Shown here piece by piece: positions 5,044-11,842 of a stretch of 12,833 bases of DNA. Position 1 is the stretch's first letter; every line of letters begins with the position of its first letter. The notes under the pieces are model-generated. The model was not told where the DNA came from. It ran no database searches and saw only the letters and a program-made list of their open reading frames with translations. The DNA is from an uncultured Clostridia bacterium (lineage in GTDB: Bacteria; Bacillota; Clostridia; Saccharofermentanales; Saccharofermentanaceae), in assembly GCA_946405115.1 (NCBI GenBank), contig CAMJGB010000028.1, positions 1 through 12,833 of the forward strand, written 5' to 3'. The translations under genes were made by a program, and so were the position numbers.

Positions 5044-6249
5044 ATGAAATCGAGAGTTATGCCTGCTGTCGTAGCTGTGATTGTCTGCTTTTCGCTTTTT
5101 GCAGGAGCATGTTCTTCCAAGTTACCTCCCGAGACGCTTCCCGTAGCAACACCTACAACTACTGCAGAGACAGTAATTGAGACTGAGACTACAGTAGCAG
5201 AGATTATTCAGGAAACTGAAGCCACGAGAGGACCTAACAGCACACCTCAGGTGCTTGATGTGCCTGTAGAAGTTAACGGACAGCTTCATGTTGAAGGTAC
5301 ACAGCTTGTTAATGAGTATGGTGTACCGATTCAGCTTAAGGGTATGAGCAGCGGCGGATTACAATCTTGTTTCCAGTTCTTTAATGATGACGTTTGTGAC
5401 ACCCTTATTCAGGATTGGGGTTGTACGGTAATAAGACTTGCCATGACATCACATGGTCTTGATAACGGTTACACATATTTCCCTGAGCGTTACTTTAATG
5501 AAGTATGCGGTTATCTTGATACTCTTATCGCACACGGCGTGTATGTAATTGTTGACTGGCACGTACTTTTTGACGGCGATCCTACAGAGTATGAAGCTGA
5601 TGCTATTGATTTCTTTACCAGAATCTCTGCTTTGTATGGCGATAATCCTCATATTATCTATGAGGTATGTAATGAGCCTAACGGAATGAGATATGATGAT
5701 CCTGATTCTCCGGTTGACTGGGAGAACGTAATCAAGCCTTATGCTGAGCGTGTTATTGCTGCAATCAGAGAGAACGATCCCGATAACATCATCATCGTTG
5801 GAACTCCTACATGGAGCCAGGATGTAGATGTAGCATCTTTGGATCCTATTGATGAAGACAATATTATGTATACCTTGCATTTCTATGCCGGTTCTCACGG
5901 TGAGGATCACATGGATAAGGTAAGAACTGCTGTAGAGAACGGACTTCCGATCTTCTGTACTGAATGGGGTGTTTCACTTGATTCCGGAAACAGCGGAGTT
6001 TTCTATACAGAGACTCTTGAGTGGATGGAACTTCTCGATGAGTACAATATCTCATGGTGCAACTGGTCTATCGGTACAGCTATTCTCGAGAGTTCTAATG
6101 CCTTGAGATTGTATTCGAACCGCTTCACCGTTGAGGAGAAGATTGCGGGACATTGGCCCGATGAGATGATATCCGATTCCGGATTGTTTGTTAGGTCCTT
6201 AATTCTGGGAACTGATTTTGAGATCCCGGAGGGAGGCTACAGCAATTAA
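5044..6249 (+). CDS. GH5-family cellulase (endo-beta-1,4-glucanase), predicted lipoprotein
   Basis: A 401-residue secreted glycoside hydrolase expected to cut beta-1,4-glucan outside the cell. A short basic N-terminus and hydrophobic stretch end at a lipobox-like AGAC with Cys23 as the lipidation site; Ala rather than Leu at -3 is a mild deviation. A Thr/Glu-rich linker (about 28-65) tethers the catalytic domain. GH5 clan-A landmarks are in order: VNEYGVPIQLKGMS (89-102), DWH (171-173), the acid/base E211 in NEPNG, H279 in TLHFY, the nucleophile E307 in CTEWG, and the aromatic region around W338 and W341. No cellulose-binding or dockerin module is present; the protein ends soon after the barrel. 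GGAG lies five bases before the ATG. The CapA-family gene follows after two bases, so the two are co-transcribed. Xyloglucan or mannan as substrate cannot be excluded. Confidence 0.9.
   Translation: MKSRVMPAVVAVIVCFSLFAGACSSKLPPETLPVATPTTTAETVIETETTVAEIIQETEATRGPNSTPQVLDVPVEVNGQLHVEGTQLVNEYGVPIQLKGMSSGGLQSCFQFFNDDVCDTLIQDWGCTVIRLAMTSHGLDNGYTYFPERYFNEVCGYLDTLIAHGVYVIVDWHVLFDGDPTEYEADAIDFFTRISALYGDNPHIIYEVCNEPNGMRYDDPDSPVDWENVIKPYAERVIAAIRENDPDNIIIVGTPTWSQDVDVASLDPIDEDNIMYTLHFYAGSHGEDHMDKVRTAVENGLPIFCTEWGVSLDSGNSGVFYTETLEWMELLDEYNISWCNWSIGTAILESSNALRLYSNRFTVEEKIAGHWPDEMISDSGLFVRSLILGTDFEIPEGGYSN
6227..6236 (+). promoter_or_regulatory. Displaced Shine-Dalgarno sequence for the CapA-family gene
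   Basis: GGAGGGAGG at 6228-6236 is the only strong ribosome-binding element before the GTG at 6252, but it lies 15 bases away, further than the usual 5-9. It falls inside the last codons of the GH5 gene, so initiation probably depends partly on translational coupling. Confidence 0.45.
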
Positions 6250-6251
6250 TC

Positions 6252-7358
6252 GTGATTAGAAGTAAATCTGACAGGCTTTATCAGTTGATTCTGATAATGT
6301 CGGCTTCTGCCGTGTTAGCAGGATGTTCCATGTTAGGAACACCCGAACAGACGGTCATAACTTCTGAGACAGTTGTTGAGACTACAGCTGCTCCTACGAA
6401 TACTCCCACACCAACACTTTCACCGACCCCGACGCCCACACCTGCACCGGAACATATCGTTGTGGATTTCCTGGGAGATCTAACTTTGGCTGATGCACTT
6501 GCTTGGAGCGGAGCACCGGGAAGTTTTGATGCAGTTGTCGGTGATGATTATGAGTATTGTTTCCAGAACTGCGCTGATTATCTTGCAGAAGATGATCTTA
6601 CATATGCTAATTTTGAAGGAACTTATGGTGATGAGACAGCATCTCATATGATTAAGGAATTTGTATTCGCAAGTGATCCTGAAACAGTTCAGATTCTTAT
6701 TAACGGCAGTATCGAAGCTGTTAACCTTTCTAATAACCATAGTTATGACTATTGGGAAGACGGACTTTTGACAACGCAACAGACTCTTGATGAAGCCGGA
6801 ATTCTTTGGAGTAACCAGCATCAGGTTGCGATTTATGAAGTAAGAGGTGTCAGAATCGGTATGTTCGGAATCGATATGATCGGTAACGGAGATACGGCTT
6901 CTACGGCTTATCCTTTGATCGATGAATTAAGAGAAGCAGGTTGCCAGATCATCATTGCTTCATGTCATTGGGGTATCGAGAGATATTACGAGCCTACATC
7001 AGATCAGGTTTATGTCGGTCATGCTCTTATTGATTACGGAGTCGATATTGTAGTCGGTGCGCATCCTCACAGATTGGAGCCCATTGAGCTTTATAACGGA
7101 AGGTACATTCTCTACAGCCTTTCGAATTTCTGTTTTGGCGGTAATACGGGATTATCTGATCCCGATACTTGCATAGTAAGATGTGAATTTGTAATGGATG
7201 AGACAAATTCATATGTTGAAGAATATAATCTTACGGTGGTTCCGTACAGTCAGACCAGTTTCGCGTCTAATGATTATTGTCCCAGGCCTTATGAATGGGA
7301 ATCAGATGATTATTACCGCGTAATGGACAGACTTAACTGGAATCAGGAAGATGAATGA
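6252..7358 (+). CDS. CapA-family (poly-gamma-glutamate synthesis type) lipoprotein
   Basis: A 368-residue extracytoplasmic lipoprotein: signal peptide, a good lipobox LAGC with Cys25, a Thr/Pro linker (about 45-66), then a CapA/PGA_cap domain with its metallophosphatase-like fold. Family motifs seen are FLGDLTL (73-79), NFEG (120-123), NLSNNHSYD (158-166), SCHWG (237-241), GAHPHRLEPIE (269-279) and LSNFCFGG (290-297). The Asp, Asn and His residues of these blocks would form the binuclear metal site. CapA proteins belong to poly-gamma-glutamate capsule systems, but none of the partner genes capB, capC or capE is nearby, so the substrate is open; cell-wall or glycan modification is equally possible. 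The start is GTG; a later ATG (about 6297) would lose most of the signal peptide. It follows the GH5 stop by two bases and precedes purE by 18. Confidence 0.85.
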   Translation: MIRSKSDRLYQLILIMSASAVLAGCSMLGTPEQTVITSETVVETTAAPTNTPTPTLSPTPTPTPAPEHIVVDFLGDLTLADALAWSGAPGSFDAVVGDDYEYCFQNCADYLAEDDLTYANFEGTYGDETASHMIKEFVFASDPETVQILINGSIEAVNLSNNHSYDYWEDGLLTTQQTLDEAGILWSNQHQVAIYEVRGVRIGMFGIDMIGNGDTASTAYPLIDELREAGCQIIIASCHWGIERYYEPTSDQVYVGHALIDYGVDIVVGAHPHRLEPIELYNGRYILYSLSNFCFGGNTGLSDPDTCIVRCEFVMDETNSYVEEYNLTVVPYSQTSFASNDYCPRPYEWESDDYYRVMDRLNWNQEDE

Positions 7359-7376: not shown

Positions 7377-7886
7377 ATGGCAACTAAGAAAGTACTTGTA
7401 ATCATGGGATCAGATTCTGATTTTCCCATTATGGAAGGATGCTTTAAGCTTCTTAAGAAGTTCGGTATCGATTATGAAGTTCATATCGCTTCTGCTCACA
7501 GAAGTCCCGATAAGGCTCATAAGCTTGCAAGTGAGGCAAAGGATAACGGATTCGGCGTTATTATCGGCGCAGCCGGACTTGCAGCACATCTTGCAGGTGT
7601 ACTTGCATCAAATACCATTCTTCCTGTTATCGGAGTTCCCTGTAAGGGCGGAGCTTTGAACGGTGTAGATGCACTTTATGCTACTGTTCAGATGCCTACG
7701 GGTATTCCTGTAGCTACCGTTGCTATTGATGGCGGTTCCAATGCAGCTATACTTGCTGCACAGATCCTTGCCGTAGGCGACGATGAATTGTCTTACAAGC
7801 TTTTGGAATATAAGAAAGAATTAGCGTCTTCTGTAGACACTAAGGAAGCAAAACTTCAGGAAAAGATCAAGGAGGCTGGGCTTTAA
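7377..7886 (+). CDS. purE: 5-(carboxyamino)imidazole ribonucleotide mutase
   Basis: PurE makes CAIR (4-carboxy-AIR) in de novo purine synthesis, normally from N5-CAIR formed by PurK. The 169-residue length and motifs fit: GSDSD (11-15), the SAHRSP loop with catalytic histidine H41, GAAGLAAHLAG (64-74), PVIGVP (83-88) and ALNGVDAL (93-100). The fourth motif usually reads AAHLPG; here the proline is alanine. The C-terminal 35 residues form a charged helix. AGGAGAAGG lies just upstream of the ATG. It is only 18 bases behind the CapA-family gene and one base ahead of purF, so it opens the purine cluster without a leader of its own. Without seeing whether purK exists elsewhere, direct AIR carboxylation (class II use) cannot be excluded, though the sequence looks class I. 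Confidence 0.95.
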   Translation: MATKKVLVIMGSDSDFPIMEGCFKLLKKFGIDYEVHIASAHRSPDKAHKLASEAKDNGFGVIIGAAGLAAHLAGVLASNTILPVIGVPCKGGALNGVDALYATVQMPTGIPVATVAIDGGSNAAILAAQILAVGDDELSYKLLEYKKELASSVDTKEAKLQEKIKEAGL

Positions 7887-7887
7887 T

Positions 7888-9303
7888 ATGAGCGGTATTT
7901 TCGGTGTGATCAACAGAGCAGGACTCGATGAGGGTACTGCAAGAACTGCGTACTACGGTATTTTCTCACTTCAGCACAGAGGTCAGGAAGCTGCCGGTAT
8001 TTCCGTTAACAGCAATGGCACATTCTTAGTTCATAAAAGAGACGGCATGGTTGCCGATATCTTTGATGAGATCACACTTAACGCCCTTGGCGGTACTGCT
8101 GCAATTGCTCATGCAAGAGGTGCAGACGGTATCATCGGTCCTGACGGTATCCAGCCTGTTGTCATTAAGTCCAGAGTAGGTAATATTGCATTAAGTTGCG
8201 ATTCCGTAATCCTTAATGCAGAGGAGATCAGAGAAGAACTTAAGAATCAGGGTGCAATCTTCCAGACAAGCACAGATACTGAGCTTATCCTTTCACTTTT
8301 CTCAAGAAATAGAGTTGTTACTGACAGTATTGAAGATGCACTTCTTAAGACCATGAAGGAACTTAAGGGTGTTTATTCTCTCATTATCATGACCGAAGAT
8401 AAGCTTATCGGTGTTCGTGATCCTTATGGATTGAGACCTTTGTCTCTCGGTAAGAAGGGCAATGAGTATATGTTTGCTTCTGAGAACTGCTCATTCGATG
8501 CTCTTGATGCCGAGTATGTAAGAAACCTTGAGCCCGGTGAGATTCTCTCAATCTCAAAGGATGAGGTATCAAGTGTTTACTTTAATTCTGAGATCTCTTC
8601 TGAAGAGAGAATCAAGAACGGTAAGGTTTGTATCTTCGAGTATGTTTATGTTGCAAGACCTGACTCCGTGATCGACGGTACTAACGTATTTAAGTCAAGA
8701 TATGAAGCAGGTAAGGCTCTTGCCAAGCTTCATCCCTGTGAGTGCGATCTTGTAATCGGTGCTCCTGACTCAGGTAACGCAGCAGCTTTGGGTTTTGCTG
8801 ACGGTCTCGGTGTCACATACGGCATGGGTCTTCTCAAGAACCGTTATGTAGGAAGAACATTCATTAAGAGCACTCAGGAACAAAGAGAGCTTGCTGTTAG
8901 AATGAAGTTCGCTGTTCTTAAGGAAGCAATCAAGGGCAAGAGAATCGCAATTGTTGATGACTCACTTGTAAGAGGTACAACAACAAAGCACATCATCAGA
9001 TTCCTTAAGGATAACGGTGCTTCTGAAGTTCATGTTAGACTTGCTTCTCCTGAAGTTAAGTTCCCTTGCTGCTACGGCGTAAATGCATCATCCGGAAAGG
9101 ATCTCCCTGCTACATACATGACAGTAGAGCAGATTGGTGAGATGATTGGTGCTGATTCTTTGGGTTATATAAGTCTTGATTGCCTTAAGGAAGCTTTGGG
9201 CGGACTTATCTGTGATACATGTTCTGCATGCTTCGACGGAAATTACATTGCCGGTAAGCCCGACGAATTCGAGAAGAGCGTACATCAGGTGAATAATCTA
9301 TGA
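7888..9303 (+). CDS. purF: PurF-type amidophosphoribosyltransferase with a degenerate glutaminase domain
   Basis: PurF makes 5-phosphoribosylamine from PRPP, the first committed purine step, normally with ammonia taken from glutamine by an N-terminal Cys. The 471-residue product is full-length. The PRPP loop IVDDSLVRGTT (355-365), KNRYVGRTFI (317-326) and Fe-S cysteines C248, C394 or C395, C442 and C445 place it with the B. subtilis-type Fe-S enzymes. The N-terminal domain retains QHRGQEAAG (29-37), H75/R77 and D130. However, the residue after Met is Ser (AGC) instead of the nucleophilic Cys, and the HNGN oxyanion motif is replaced by CDSV (104-107). No upstream in-frame Cys start or propeptide exists: the frame closely follows purE. 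It is predicted to use free or delivered ammonia. It is one base after purE and overlaps purN by ATGA. Confidence 0.92.
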   Translation: MSGIFGVINRAGLDEGTARTAYYGIFSLQHRGQEAAGISVNSNGTFLVHKRDGMVADIFDEITLNALGGTAAIAHARGADGIIGPDGIQPVVIKSRVGNIALSCDSVILNAEEIREELKNQGAIFQTSTDTELILSLFSRNRVVTDSIEDALLKTMKELKGVYSLIIMTEDKLIGVRDPYGLRPLSLGKKGNEYMFASENCSFDALDAEYVRNLEPGEILSISKDEVSSVYFNSEISSEERIKNGKVCIFEYVYVARPDSVIDGTNVFKSRYEAGKALAKLHPCECDLVIGAPDSGNAAALGFADGLGVTYGMGLLKNRYVGRTFIKSTQEQRELAVRMKFAVLKEAIKGKRIAIVDDSLVRGTTTKHIIRFLKDNGASEVHVRLASPEVKFPCCYGVNASSGKDLPATYMTVEQIGEMIGADSLGYISLDCLKEALGGLICDTCSACFDGNYIAGKPDEFEKSVHQVNNL

Positions 9304-9923
9304 AGATAGCAGTATTTGTTTCAGGCGGAGGCACTAACCTTCAGGCTATCATTGACCGTATCAACAGCGGTGAGCTGAAGAACGTTGAGATAGCACTTGT
9401 TATTGCTTCCAATGACAGCGCATATGCGCTCACAAGAGCTTCCGATAACGGCATTCCTTCTGTAGTTATGTCAGTCAAGTCTTACCCTTCCAGAGAAGAG
9501 TGGGACGATGCTGTTGTAGCTAAGCTTAAGGAAGTCGGTGCCGAGCTCATCGTCCTTGCAGGTTACTTGTCGCTTCTCGGCGCTAAGACTGTTAAGGAAT
9601 TCAGCAATAAGATCATCAATATTCATCCTGCCCTTATCCCGTCATTCTGCGGTAAGGGCATGTATGGTATTAAGCCTCACGAGGCTGCACTTGCAAGAGG
9701 AGTTAAGGTTTCCGGTGCTACGGTTCATCTCGTTAACGAGAATTACGATGAGGGCCCGATCCTTCTTCAAAAGTGCGTTGATATCCTGCCTGACGATACT
9801 CCCGAGGTGCTCCAGAAGCGCATAATGAAGGAGTGCGAGCAGGTAATTCTGCCGAAGGCAATAAGCCTTTTCGCAGAAGGTAAAGTAGAGATCAAAAATA
9901 ATATTGCATATGTAAAGGAATGA
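9300..9923 (+). CDS. purN: Phosphoribosylglycinamide formyltransferase
   Basis: PurN transfers a formyl group from 10-formyltetrahydrofolate to GAR to give FGAR. The 207-residue product matches the family: VSGGGTNLQA (7-16) binds the GAR phosphate, AGYLSLLG is at 87-94, and the catalytic triad is present as N107 and H109 in INIHPALIPSF and D150 in NENYDEGPI. The KGMYG-x-x-PHEAAL segment (119-131) is also conserved. The start codon overlaps the purF stop (ATGA), a coupling that keeps PurF and PurN stoichiometry linked. It needs only the folate cofactor, in contrast to formate-dependent PurT. Confidence 0.97.
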   Translation: MKIAVFVSGGGTNLQAIIDRINSGELKNVEIALVIASNDSAYALTRASDNGIPSVVMSVKSYPSREEWDDAVVAKLKEVGAELIVLAGYLSLLGAKTVKEFSNKIINIHPALIPSFCGKGMYGIKPHEAALARGVKVSGATVHLVNENYDEGPILLQKCVDILPDDTPEVLQKRIMKECEQVILPKAISLFAEGKVEIKNNIAYVKE

Positions 9924-9930
9924 AGTATCT

Positions 9931-10647
9931 ATGGAAAAGAAGAACATCTCAGAGATCTTGAAGACAAACGCATACCCTGGAAGAGGTATCGTTATCGGTA
10001 AGTCCGCTGACGGCAAGAAGGCAGTAACTGCTTACTTCATTATGGGAAGAAGCGTAAACTCCAGAAACCGTGTATTTACAGCTACAGAGGACGGCATCAA
10101 GACAGAAGCTTTTGATCCTTCAAAGCTTTCCGATCCGCACCTTATCATCTATTCACCTGTAAGAGTTCTCGGTAACAAGACAATCGTTACTAACGGTGAT
10201 CAGACTGATACAATCTACGAGCTTATGGATAAGCAGCAGACTTTCGAGATGAGTCTTAGAGGAAGAGAGTTTGAGGACGATGCTCCTAACTACACTCCCA
10301 GAATCTCCGGAATTCTCCACGTTGAGAACGGTACATTCAATTACGCAATGTCTATCTTGAAGTCTGCAGACGGCAATCCTGAGTCATGTGAGAGACACAC
10401 TTTCTCATATACAAACCCCATTGCAGGTGACGGAAGATTCATCCACACATACATGGGCGACGGCAATCCGCTCCCGAGCTTCGAGGGTGAGCCTGAGAAG
10501 ATCGGCATTGATGCAGAAGATATTGATTCTTTCACAGATATGCTCTGGACGAGCCTCAATGAGGAGAACAAGGTATCCTTGTATGTTAAGTTCATCGACA
10601 TCGCTACTGGCGAAGCTGAGACAAGAATTGTAAATAAGAACGTTTAA
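9931..10647 (+). CDS. purO: IMP cyclohydrolase, archaeal PurO type
   Basis: Closes the ring of FAICAR to give IMP, the final de novo step. The 238-residue protein carries the PurO (IMP_cyclohyd) signatures rather than those of the MGS-like PurH N-terminal domain: YPGRGIVIG (15-23) near the N-terminus, MGRSVNSRNR (38-47) and YTPRISG (121-127). PurO was first characterised in methanogenic archaea, where it replaces the cyclohydrolase half of PurH; bacterial members occur, particularly in Clostridia. It is longer than the roughly 200-residue methanogen enzyme. The gene begins seven bases after purN and is followed 13 bases later by the stand-alone AICAR transformylase, which together replace bifunctional PurH. 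No signal peptide. Function by family and context is convincing; gene symbol follows the archaeal name. Confidence 0.88.
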   Translation: MEKKNISEILKTNAYPGRGIVIGKSADGKKAVTAYFIMGRSVNSRNRVFTATEDGIKTEAFDPSKLSDPHLIIYSPVRVLGNKTIVTNGDQTDTIYELMDKQQTFEMSLRGREFEDDAPNYTPRISGILHVENGTFNYAMSILKSADGNPESCERHTFSYTNPIAGDGRFIHTYMGDGNPLPSFEGEPEKIGIDAEDIDSFTDMLWTSLNEENKVSLYVKFIDIATGEAETRIVNKNV

Positions 10648-10660
10648 GGAGTATAAAGAA

Positions 10661-11842
10661 ATGTCTAACGAAATGCAGCTTAAGTACGGTTGTAATCCCA
10701 ACCAGAAGCCCTCAAGAATCTATATGGAGAACGGTTCCGAGCTTCCTATCGAAGTTCTTAACGGCAAGCCCGGTTACATTAACCTTCTCGATGCCTTTAA
10801 CGGCTGGCAGCTTGTAAAGGAGCTTAAGAAGGCTACAGGTCTTCCTTCAGCAACTTCTTTCAAGCATGTTTCTCCTGCAGGTGCTGCAGTAGGTAAGCCC
10901 CTTTCTGAGACAGAAGCAAAGATCTATTTTGTAGATGATCTTGGTGAGCTTTCTCCGATCGCTTGCGCTTACGCAAGAGCAAGAGGCGCTGACAGAATGA
11001 GTTCTTACGGTGACTTCGTTGCTTTGTCTGATACATGTGATGCTATTACTGCTAAGATGCTCGCACGTGAGGTATCTGACGGTATCATCGCTCCTGATTA
11101 CACAGATGAGGCTCTTGAGATCCTTAAGACAAAGCGTAAGGGCACATATAACGTAATCAAGATCAATCCCGAGTACATGCCTGAGCCTATCGAGAAGAAG
11201 CAGGTATACGGTGTTACTTTCGAGCAGGGAAGAAATGAGCTTGATATCAACAATGAGCTTCTTTCCAATATCGTTACTGACAATAAGGTTATCCCTGATG
11301 ACAAGAAGATCGACCTTCTTATCTCATTGATCACATTAAAGTACACACAGAGTAATTCTGTCTGCTACGTTAAGGACGGTCAGGCAATCGGTATCGGTGC
11401 TGGTCAGCAGTCAAGAATCCACTGCACACGTCTTGCAGGTAACAAGGCTGATATTTGGTGGCTCAGACAGCATCCTAAGGTTATGGGCCTTAAGTTTGTT
11501 GATGATATCAGAAGACCAGACAGAGATAACACAATCGATGTTTATATTTCTGATGAGCACGATGATGTATTGAGAGACGGTACATGGCAGACATTGTTTA
11601 AGGAGAAGCCTGAGGTTCTTACAGATGCTGAGAAGAAGGAATGGCTTGCTAAGAATACTGACGTTGCTTTGGGTTCTGATGCATTCTTCCCGTTCGGTGA
11701 CAACATCGAGAGAGCTTACAAGAGCGGTGTTAAGTACATTGCTGAGCCCGGCGGTTCCATCAGAGATGATCATGTCATCATGACTTGCAACAAGTACGAC
11801 ATGGCTATGGCCTTCACAGGCATCAGACTCTTCCACCATTAA
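10661..11842 (+). CDS. AICAR transformylase, stand-alone (PurH C-terminal domain only)
   Basis: Formylates AICAR with 10-formyltetrahydrofolate to FAICAR. The 393-residue product corresponds to the C-terminal transformylase part of PurH; the cyclohydrolase domain is absent. It starts at the LKYGCNPNQ block (7-15), the counterpart of LRYGENPHQ in PurH. The catalytic Lys-His pair K68-H69 lies in SFKHVSPAGAA. Other conserved blocks are LKYTQSNSV (226-234), GAGQQSRIHC (246-255), SDAFFPF (339-345), AEPGGSIRDD (361-370) and the terminal TGIRLFHH. AAGGAG lies shortly before the ATG. It follows the PurO-type cyclohydrolase by 13 bases, which supplies the missing activity; that enzyme must pull this thermodynamically unfavourable step forward. 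argJ follows after 12 bases. Confidence 0.95.
   Translation: MSNEMQLKYGCNPNQKPSRIYMENGSELPIEVLNGKPGYINLLDAFNGWQLVKELKKATGLPSATSFKHVSPAGAAVGKPLSETEAKIYFVDDLGELSPIACAYARARGADRMSSYGDFVALSDTCDAITAKMLAREVSDGIIAPDYTDEALEILKTKRKGTYNVIKINPEYMPEPIEKKQVYGVTFEQGRNELDINNELLSNIVTDNKVIPDDKKIDLLISLITLKYTQSNSVCYVKDGQAIGIGAGQQSRIHCTRLAGNKADIWWLRQHPKVMGLKFVDDIRRPDRDNTIDVYISDEHDDVLRDGTWQTLFKEKPEVLTDAEKKEWLAKNTDVALGSDAFFPFGDNIERAYKSGVKYIAEPGGSIRDDHVIMTCNKYDMAMAFTGIRLFHH

Follow-up and report, generated by a model that had tools for sequence, protein, structure and literature searches.

Textbooks list PurF and PurL as glutamine amidotransferases, and wherever either is present its donor is annotated as glutamine by default. 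CPS I of ureotelic animals is an ammonia-using enzyme that retains a glutaminase domain without the catalytic Cys. A dead glutaminase domain is common to CPS I and the protein described here, but CPS I has a class I glutaminase and an unrelated acceptor domain. In Escherichia coli PurF, exchange of Cys1 for Ala or Ser abolishes the glutamine activity, and ammonia is used (Mei and Zalkin, as cited in PMC3261824, section 6). PMC7953260 describes Arg73 as binding the glutamine carboxylate, the backbone of Gly102 as contacting the analogue DON, and Tyr74 and Ile335 as walls of the NH3 channel.

A Cys-less PurF paralogue, termed PurF', has been described in Crenarchaeota, for which ammonia use was proposed but left untested (Brown et al., 2011, PMC3261824). 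The same text mentions Mlab_0150 of Methanocorpusculum labreanum. Like the gene presented here, it has Ser for Cys and is a duplicate of a Cys copy, but it is a single-genome, euryarchaeal case, set aside by authors who doubted that it is a PurF. Within the scope of our literature search (titles and abstract openings, with most subscription papers outside it), nothing was found on a bacterial Cys-less PurF or a glutaminase-dead PurL. The crenarchaeal PurF' and the ammonia proposal are already known; the bacterial cases are what is added here.

A PurF without the catalytic cysteine in a purine cluster

The stretch of DNA that we analysed (the window, 12,833 bases) is contig 28 of a 243-contig genome of 1.85 Mb (84.6% complete) from an uncultured rumen member of the Clostridia. 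Its end is occupied by a purine cluster consisting of purE, a purF-like gene, purN, a PurO-like gene and an AICAR formyltransferase gene, followed by argJ, which is truncated by the contig end (Table 1). An earlier reading made from the letters alone (the sequence-only reading) had described ATGA coupling of purF and purN, and purN does start within the purF stop.

Table 1. Purine genes of the window and residues of the Cys-less PurF
Feature	Position	Strand	Evidence
purE (5-(carboxyamino)imidazole ribonucleotide mutase), operon neighbour	7377..7886	+	TIGR01162, 193 bits (cut-off 149.6)
Cys-less PurF paralogue, 471 aa	7888..9303	+	TIGR01134, 424.1 bits (cut-off 350), residues 3-453
Ser2 (AGC), replacing the N-terminal Cys nucleophile	7891..7893	+	Ser in 35/35 orthologues
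QHRGQ (29-33), kept	7972..7986	+	35/35 orthologues
H75-A-R77	8110..8118	+	R77 aligns to Arg73; R in 28, K in 7 of 35 orthologues
CDSV (104-107), replacing HNGN	8197..8208	+	D105 in 34/35, S106 in 34/35 orthologues
D130, aligned to Asp127, kept	8275..8277	+	D in 35/35 orthologues
Cys248, putative Fe-S ligand	8629..8631	+	alignment
KNRYVGRTFI (317-326), PRTase flexible loop, kept	8836..8865	+	alignments
DDSLVRGTT (357-365), PRPP loop, kept	8956..8982	+	alignments
Cys394, putative Fe-S ligand	9067..9069	+	alignment
Cys445, putative Fe-S ligand	9220..9222	+	alignment
Cys448, putative Fe-S ligand	9229..9231	+	alignment
purN	9300..9923	+	TIGR00639, 208.6 bits; start overlaps purF stop (ATGA, 9300-9303)
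PurO-like IMP cyclohydrolase	9931..10647	+	PF07826, 231 bits
Stand-alone AICAR formyltransferase	10661..11842	+	NF005492, 732 bits

The window PurF begins with MSGIFGV and matches the PurF profile over its full length, above the cut-off. We set the domain limits at about residues 1-235 for the glutaminase and about 236-457 for the phosphoribosyltransferase (PRTase). The Ser in the second codon and the CDSV motif, both claimed by the sequence-only reading, are borne out by profile and sequence alignments. In the alignment with Bacillus subtilis PurF (residues 4-453, about 385 bits), the HNGN stretch falls on CDSV, and Ser2 lies beside the Cys position. D105 stands at Asn101 (E. coli numbering), which we take to be the oxyanion residue. 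The features said to be retained (QHRGQ, H75 and R77, D130, the PRPP loop and the Fe-S cysteines) are all present. D130 matches Asp127, presumably a glutamine contact, and Cys248, Cys394, Cys445 and Cys448, which we assume to be the Fe-S ligands, are invariant across the 56 sequences of one alignment. Compared with PurF of B. subtilis (1AO0) and E. coli (1ECF; EC 2.4.2.14), the protein shares the fold, the PRPP loop, the flexible loop, the four Cys and the place in the operon. Among the residues that mark this enzyme, it has the glutamine-binding Arg73 and Asp127, but neither the N-terminal Cys nor HNGN. The residue after R77 is Gly (34 of 35 orthologues), where canonical PurF has the channel-wall Tyr74.

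A wrong start masking a Cys was rejected. No upstream frame yields the conserved Cys, AAGGAGG lies upstream of the start at 7888, and MSG is the start in all 35 orthologues; at one locus (L028) a stop codon immediately precedes it. A sequencing or assembly error is ruled out by Ser2 in all the orthologues, and decay to a pseudogene by the dN/dS values given below and by the uninterrupted frames. The earlier assertion that the gene is neither broken nor misread thus stands, with purifying selection on its side.

The Ser state is fixed in the genus and accompanied by a canonical PurF

We searched 59 genomes, 35 of them from the genus of the window (own genome included; labelled Saccharofermentans-like here) and 24 from the order. 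The paralogue is present in 34 of the 35 congeneric genomes (35 genes, as G015 has two) with 66-92% identity to that of the window. All 35 proteins have Ser2, Gly3, QHRGQE, D130 and E132. Database homologues at 83-92% identity come from MAGs, mostly from rumen or omasum, labelled Clostridiales, Clostridia or Saccharofermentans sp.; the source of P0082 (67% identity) is Ruminococcaceae bacterium YAD3003. Among the 120 homologues listed, 116 start with MSG and two are truncated, which leaves P0044 and P0120. Of the 118 listed homologues whose N-terminus is complete, all but these two (116) have Ser2, and the Asn position is Asp in 99 of the 120. P0044 has a Cys-type N-terminus fused to a paralogue body at the QHRGQ stretch and is probably an assembly chimera (1.8 kb contig). 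P0120 (57% identity) retains Cys (EECG) together with INGS and is sister to the entire Ser clade (support 100/99), so that the Cys was lost once on that stem. The sequence-only reading had envisaged a group sharing Ser2 and CDSV. The Ser2 group is indeed monophyletic and has an altered HNGN, but CDSV itself is not fixed, since D105 and S106 are each missing from one of the 35 orthologues.

Among its refuting conditions the reading had also named a second intact purF carrying all the flux; a Cys-bearing copy, which bears on this condition, was found in the same genome (C3:1430-2842). It carries MHEECGVFG and IAHNGN, is 45% identical to the window PurF, and has thioredoxin- and radical-SAM-like genes (by inspection) as neighbours. 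The window PurF as the only PurF of its genome is therefore rejected, and it cannot be called the sole PRA synthase; it is an additional isozyme or a partner. The second copies of the congeners have Cys and HNGN in 32 of 32 cases each. Thirty-one of the 35 genomes have both copies at full length. In three others only the paralogue is complete, G034 having a fragment of the other copy and G021 and G016 no match to it at E 1e-30, and G013 has the canonical copy only. A recent duplication of the genome's other copy was also considered and rejected: the paralogue clusters instead with PurFs encoded in operons in other families of the order, and these retain Cys. Some of these Cys-bearing operon PurFs are without the His of HNGN (ALNGS, AFNGA).

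The traits of crenarchaeal PurF', namely no N-terminal Cys, coexistence with a Cys PurF and a location near purine genes (PMC3261824), are all found for the window gene. It differs in being bacterial, in having Ser and in lying in an operon with the Cys copy on another contig, whereas PurF' is archaeal, many have Ala or Val, and purF and purF' are close together (same source; PurF' was compared by description). The nearest relatives in our trees, Cys-bearing P0120 and the operon PurFs of the same order, argue for an origin separate from PurF'.

A deeper PurF-like family without Cys (L089-L092, from G051, G048, G039 and G013) has the start M[GS]G[IF]FGV, SHLG for QHRG, and DDSIVRGTQ. At L121, the one context of this type inspected, no purine genes were recognised alongside.

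The dead glutaminase domain is under purifying selection

For the paralogue, protein distances averaged over 465 genome pairs were 0.272 in the N domain and 0.175 in the C domain; the canonical copy of the same pairs gave 0.334 and 0.270. The N/C ratio is 1.55 for the paralogue versus 1.23 for the canonical copy; in the paralogue, the N domain is somewhat relaxed compared with the C domain. Median dN/dS was obtained for two sets of closely related congeners (4 and 10 genomes): it is 0.062 and 0.043 in the dead N domain, and 0.063 and 0.044 in the canonical N domain, these ratios being rough because dS is high (0.8 to 1.5, two pairs saturated). The AlphaFold model of the window PurF has a pLDDT of 87.7 and a TM score of 0.86 to 1AO0. 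The dead domain is thus not decaying, and of the two copies it is the paralogue that has the better conserved PRTase part.

Loss of the cysteine elsewhere in the Clostridia

Of 108 genomes drawn evenly from the class, 84 gave a PurF at E 1e-60. Residue counts cover 30 inspected loci (L147-L176), all with Cys, and the seven full-length matches outside the own genome that start one position into the profile, all Cys-less; about five of the remaining matches were partial. Two of the seven (G140 and G164) belong to the window's genus, G123 and G149 have a Cys copy in addition, and the others are G170, G152 and G146.

Several groups were followed further. In g5 (family f2), six of seven genomes have one PurF-like gene, which always starts with MSG and has a deletion of the Asp127 segment; no such gene was found in the seventh. 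Both genomes of g9 (family f4) have a Cys-less sole PurF with a GTG start. In f41 (Tissierella-type, including Tissierella sp. MB52-C2), PurF is found in 22 of 23 genomes and is single-copy in 20. Ser was read in 18 of 19 of these single genes and Cys in G200, while the gene of G218 is truncated at the end of its contig; G201 and G202 each combine a Cys copy with a Ser copy. In f29 (Peptoniphilus-type, including Aedoeadaptatus ivorii), 68 of 80 genomes have a match, of which 31 start at profile position 1, 36 start later and one (G240) is in two pieces. None of the 36 late-start genes, all read, has Cys (28 Ser, 3 Gly, 1 Ala, 4 missing the first residues), and the 14 position-1 genes that were read all have it. 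Cys-less genes thus make up 36 of the 67 intact single-copy matches of f29. The PRTase motifs are recognisable in all Cys-less groups, with few changes (e.g. VRSST in L210, IIKGST in g5).

PurFs starting with MFGIWN, without the first Ntn residues, were seen at L225 (7829-9247) and L194-L197 as single copies in genomes 97% to 100% complete. The two pieces of purF in G240 (C2 621564-622882; genome 99% complete) are separated by an in-frame TGA, probably a broken gene.

The Cys-less purF of these lineages lies among other purine genes. Neighbours were named by family scans for L122 (purC, purL, purE, purM, purN, purD), L120 (purM and a purN-purD fusion), L225 (purC, purE, purK, purL, purM, purN, purH, purD), L229 (purL, purE, purM, purN, purH, purD), L224 (purL, purD, purC), L178 (purL, purM, purD) and L181 (purL, purD); other neighbours, and L177, were judged by the starts of the open reading frames. 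Some of these assignments are below cut-off: the two most eroded PurFs (339.6 and 344.6 bits, cut-off 350), PurL of L122 (1051.8 vs 1057), three PurC (111-125 vs 189.9) and PurK (337.9 vs 375). The putative purC of L178 gave no family match at 1e-40. At L224 (8784-12468), PurL of G262 is split over two overlapping frames.

Cys1 and Asn101 were mostly exchanged together

In an alignment of 499 sequences, Cys occurs with Asn101 in 189 and with Asp in 4, and Ser with Asp in 276, with Asn in 7 and with other residues in 19; four rows are gapped at residue 1, and the rows are not independent, some being the same gene twice (locus and database copy). Four MGG-type proteins, P0044 and eight proteins without suitable length or a readable start were excluded from this alignment. 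G222, outside the count, is another Cys with Asp.

Parsimony on a FastTree phylogeny of 234 representatives, with the Cys and Asn columns masked, gave 10 changes from Cys to Ser. Of six Asn-to-Asp changes, five share their branch with a Cys-to-Ser change and the sixth precedes two such changes. Within the Saccharofermentans Ser clade Asp was gained once more; in g9 and in G123/G149 the Cys was lost and Asp was not gained. With a more careful tree of 88 sequences, five changes are inferred and at least three are forced, some positions being unsure because of long branches (L177, L084, L047, L139, and g5 in an earlier tree). The P0044 chimera was still included in the earlier tree.

The PurL glutaminase is lost in many of the same genomes

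The glutaminase of PurL was scored by the motifs GICNGFQ and HGEG. Among 51 genomes with a Cys-less sole PurF in which both proteins were read, it is lost in 30 and intact in 20, and G199 has one of each kind. The losses and retentions are distributed as follows: f41, 17 lost plus G199; f29, 11 lost and 17 intact; g9, two intact; G152, lost; g5, lost in G044 (in both PurL-like genes) and intact in G047. PurL of f41 (L245-L263) is without the class I glutaminase Cys and His. All 14 genomes read that have a Cys PurF have an intact PurL, including six of six from the window's genus (own included), so the window organism still uses glutamine in the purine pathway. A plentiful supply of ammonia would permit one pathway to lose two unrelated glutaminases, as has happened here, with PurF apparently losing its glutaminase before PurL.

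The second, divergent PurL-like protein of G044 (L301, 1227 residues), encoded outside the operon, is also without the glutaminase Cys.

An ammonia-dependent PRA synthase and the alternatives

From its sequence, we consider the window PurF to be probably (roughly 0.6) an ammonia-dependent PRA synthase working alongside a glutamine-dependent isozyme, with presumed catalysis by means of NH3. The Ntn-glutaminase domain would be a conserved pseudo-domain and the PRTase domain a still working PRPP enzyme. Removal of Met1 would expose an N-terminal Ser, and with Asp at the oxyanion position and Gly for the channel-wall Tyr no hydrolysis of glutamine is expected. Free NH3 may enter the PRTase site via the former glutaminase pocket or channel and would there attack C1 of PRPP to form phosphoribosylamine. 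As a guess, the Asp at 101 might pair with the N-terminal amino group or attract NH4+. The two isozymes, that for ammonia encoded in the operon and that for glutamine outside it, may divide the labour. Ammonia is abundant in the rumen and other habitats of these bacteria.

The sequence-only reading had likewise proposed an ammonia-dependent PRA synthase. The proposal is strengthened by the sole-copy Cys-less PurFs in other purine operons and weakened by the canonical copy here; as 31 congeners have two copies, the sole-copy argument rests on the other lineages. R77 and D130, kept in most orthologues, would be unneeded by a pure ammonia enzyme and count against it. The repeated loss in related anaerobes, often without an intact copy, points to purine synthesis fed by free ammonia. 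Tentatively, PurF may have changed repeatedly across the Clostridia from using glutamine to using ammonium, in most cases through two substitutions (Cys1 to Ser, Asn101 to Asp) by which the dead pocket would become an ammonium intake, Asp drawing in NH4+ at the channel mouth. PurL would have followed in the Tissierella-type families, and the window gene would be a conversion with the glutamine copy still kept.

If anaerobes such as Tissierella and Aedoeadaptatus, which are culturable, use free ammonia for purines, flux models need revising, as do glutamine-analogue sensitivity and the supposed need for ammonia channelling. If the conversion is real, the Tissierella-type de novo purine pathway is glutamine-free at both amidotransferase steps. 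The archaeal PurF' proposal of 2011 can now be tested directly in bacteria, including some whose only PurF is accompanied by a dead PurL, and the Cys/Ser and Asn/Asp pair with its one-residue intermediates offers a natural series for the uncoupling of a two-domain enzyme.

The canonical copy in the window organism calls for caution, and regulation of canonical PurF by the paralogue is the main rival, which we regard as unlikely. A regulatory pseudoenzyme would form a hetero-oligomer with canonical PurF and tune it by sensing glutamine, nucleotides or PRPP, a role that other catalytically dead paralogues have. It would account for both copies being full-length in 31 of 35 genus genomes and for the strong constraint and kept fold of the dead domain, in which R77 (28 of 35) and D130 (35 of 35) could hold a glutamine-like ligand. 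However, the PRTase site is kept and evolves more slowly than that of the canonical copy, unlike in a pseudo-subunit, the place in the operon is that of the main enzyme, and no second PurF to regulate was found in f29, g5, g9 and most of f41.

The ammonia could also be delivered by a separate glutaminase docked on the dead domain, for which the kept domain would be the docking site. Of the 31 genomes searched, 10 have GlsA, among them 9 of 12 of f41, but it was not found in six of six genomes of the window's genus, four of four of g5/g9 and seven of eight of f29. Free-standing PurQ was not found over the cut-off in any of the 25 genomes searched: the stronger profile matches are in PurL-sized frames, and the remainder (27 bits or less, frames of about 200 residues) are probably other glutaminase subunits. 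No glutaminase gene was recognised in the window, and the genome searches covered GlsA and PurQ. We consider such a partner improbable. The odds are equally long for new chemistry, with a substrate other than NH3 for the PRTase domain: duplication leaves a copy free to diverge, but the PRPP loop and flexible loop are as in canonical enzymes, and other lineages use such a protein as the sole copy in purine operons.

Ser serves as a nucleophile in other Ntn hydrolases, and every one of the 35 orthologues has Ser2, as do all 116 listed Cys-less homologues whose N-terminus is intact. That Ser1 acts in this way in a still glutamine-dependent enzyme is nevertheless very improbable, as E. coli C1S is without glutamine activity (PMC3261824), Asp and Ser stand where the oxyanion Asn and Gly should be, the position can be Gly, Ala or missing in f29, and the Asp127 segment is deleted in g5.

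Other features of the locus

The role of PurH is split in the window, in a bacterium, between the PurO-like IMP cyclohydrolase and the stand-alone AICAR formyltransferase. The PurO-like protein scores below the NCBIfam archaeal cut-off and above the Pfam cut-off. Directly upstream of purE lie genes for a GH5 cellulase and a PGA_cap protein (5044-6249 and 6252-7358), and comparable upstream open reading frames, judged by their first residues, are present at L096 and L115.
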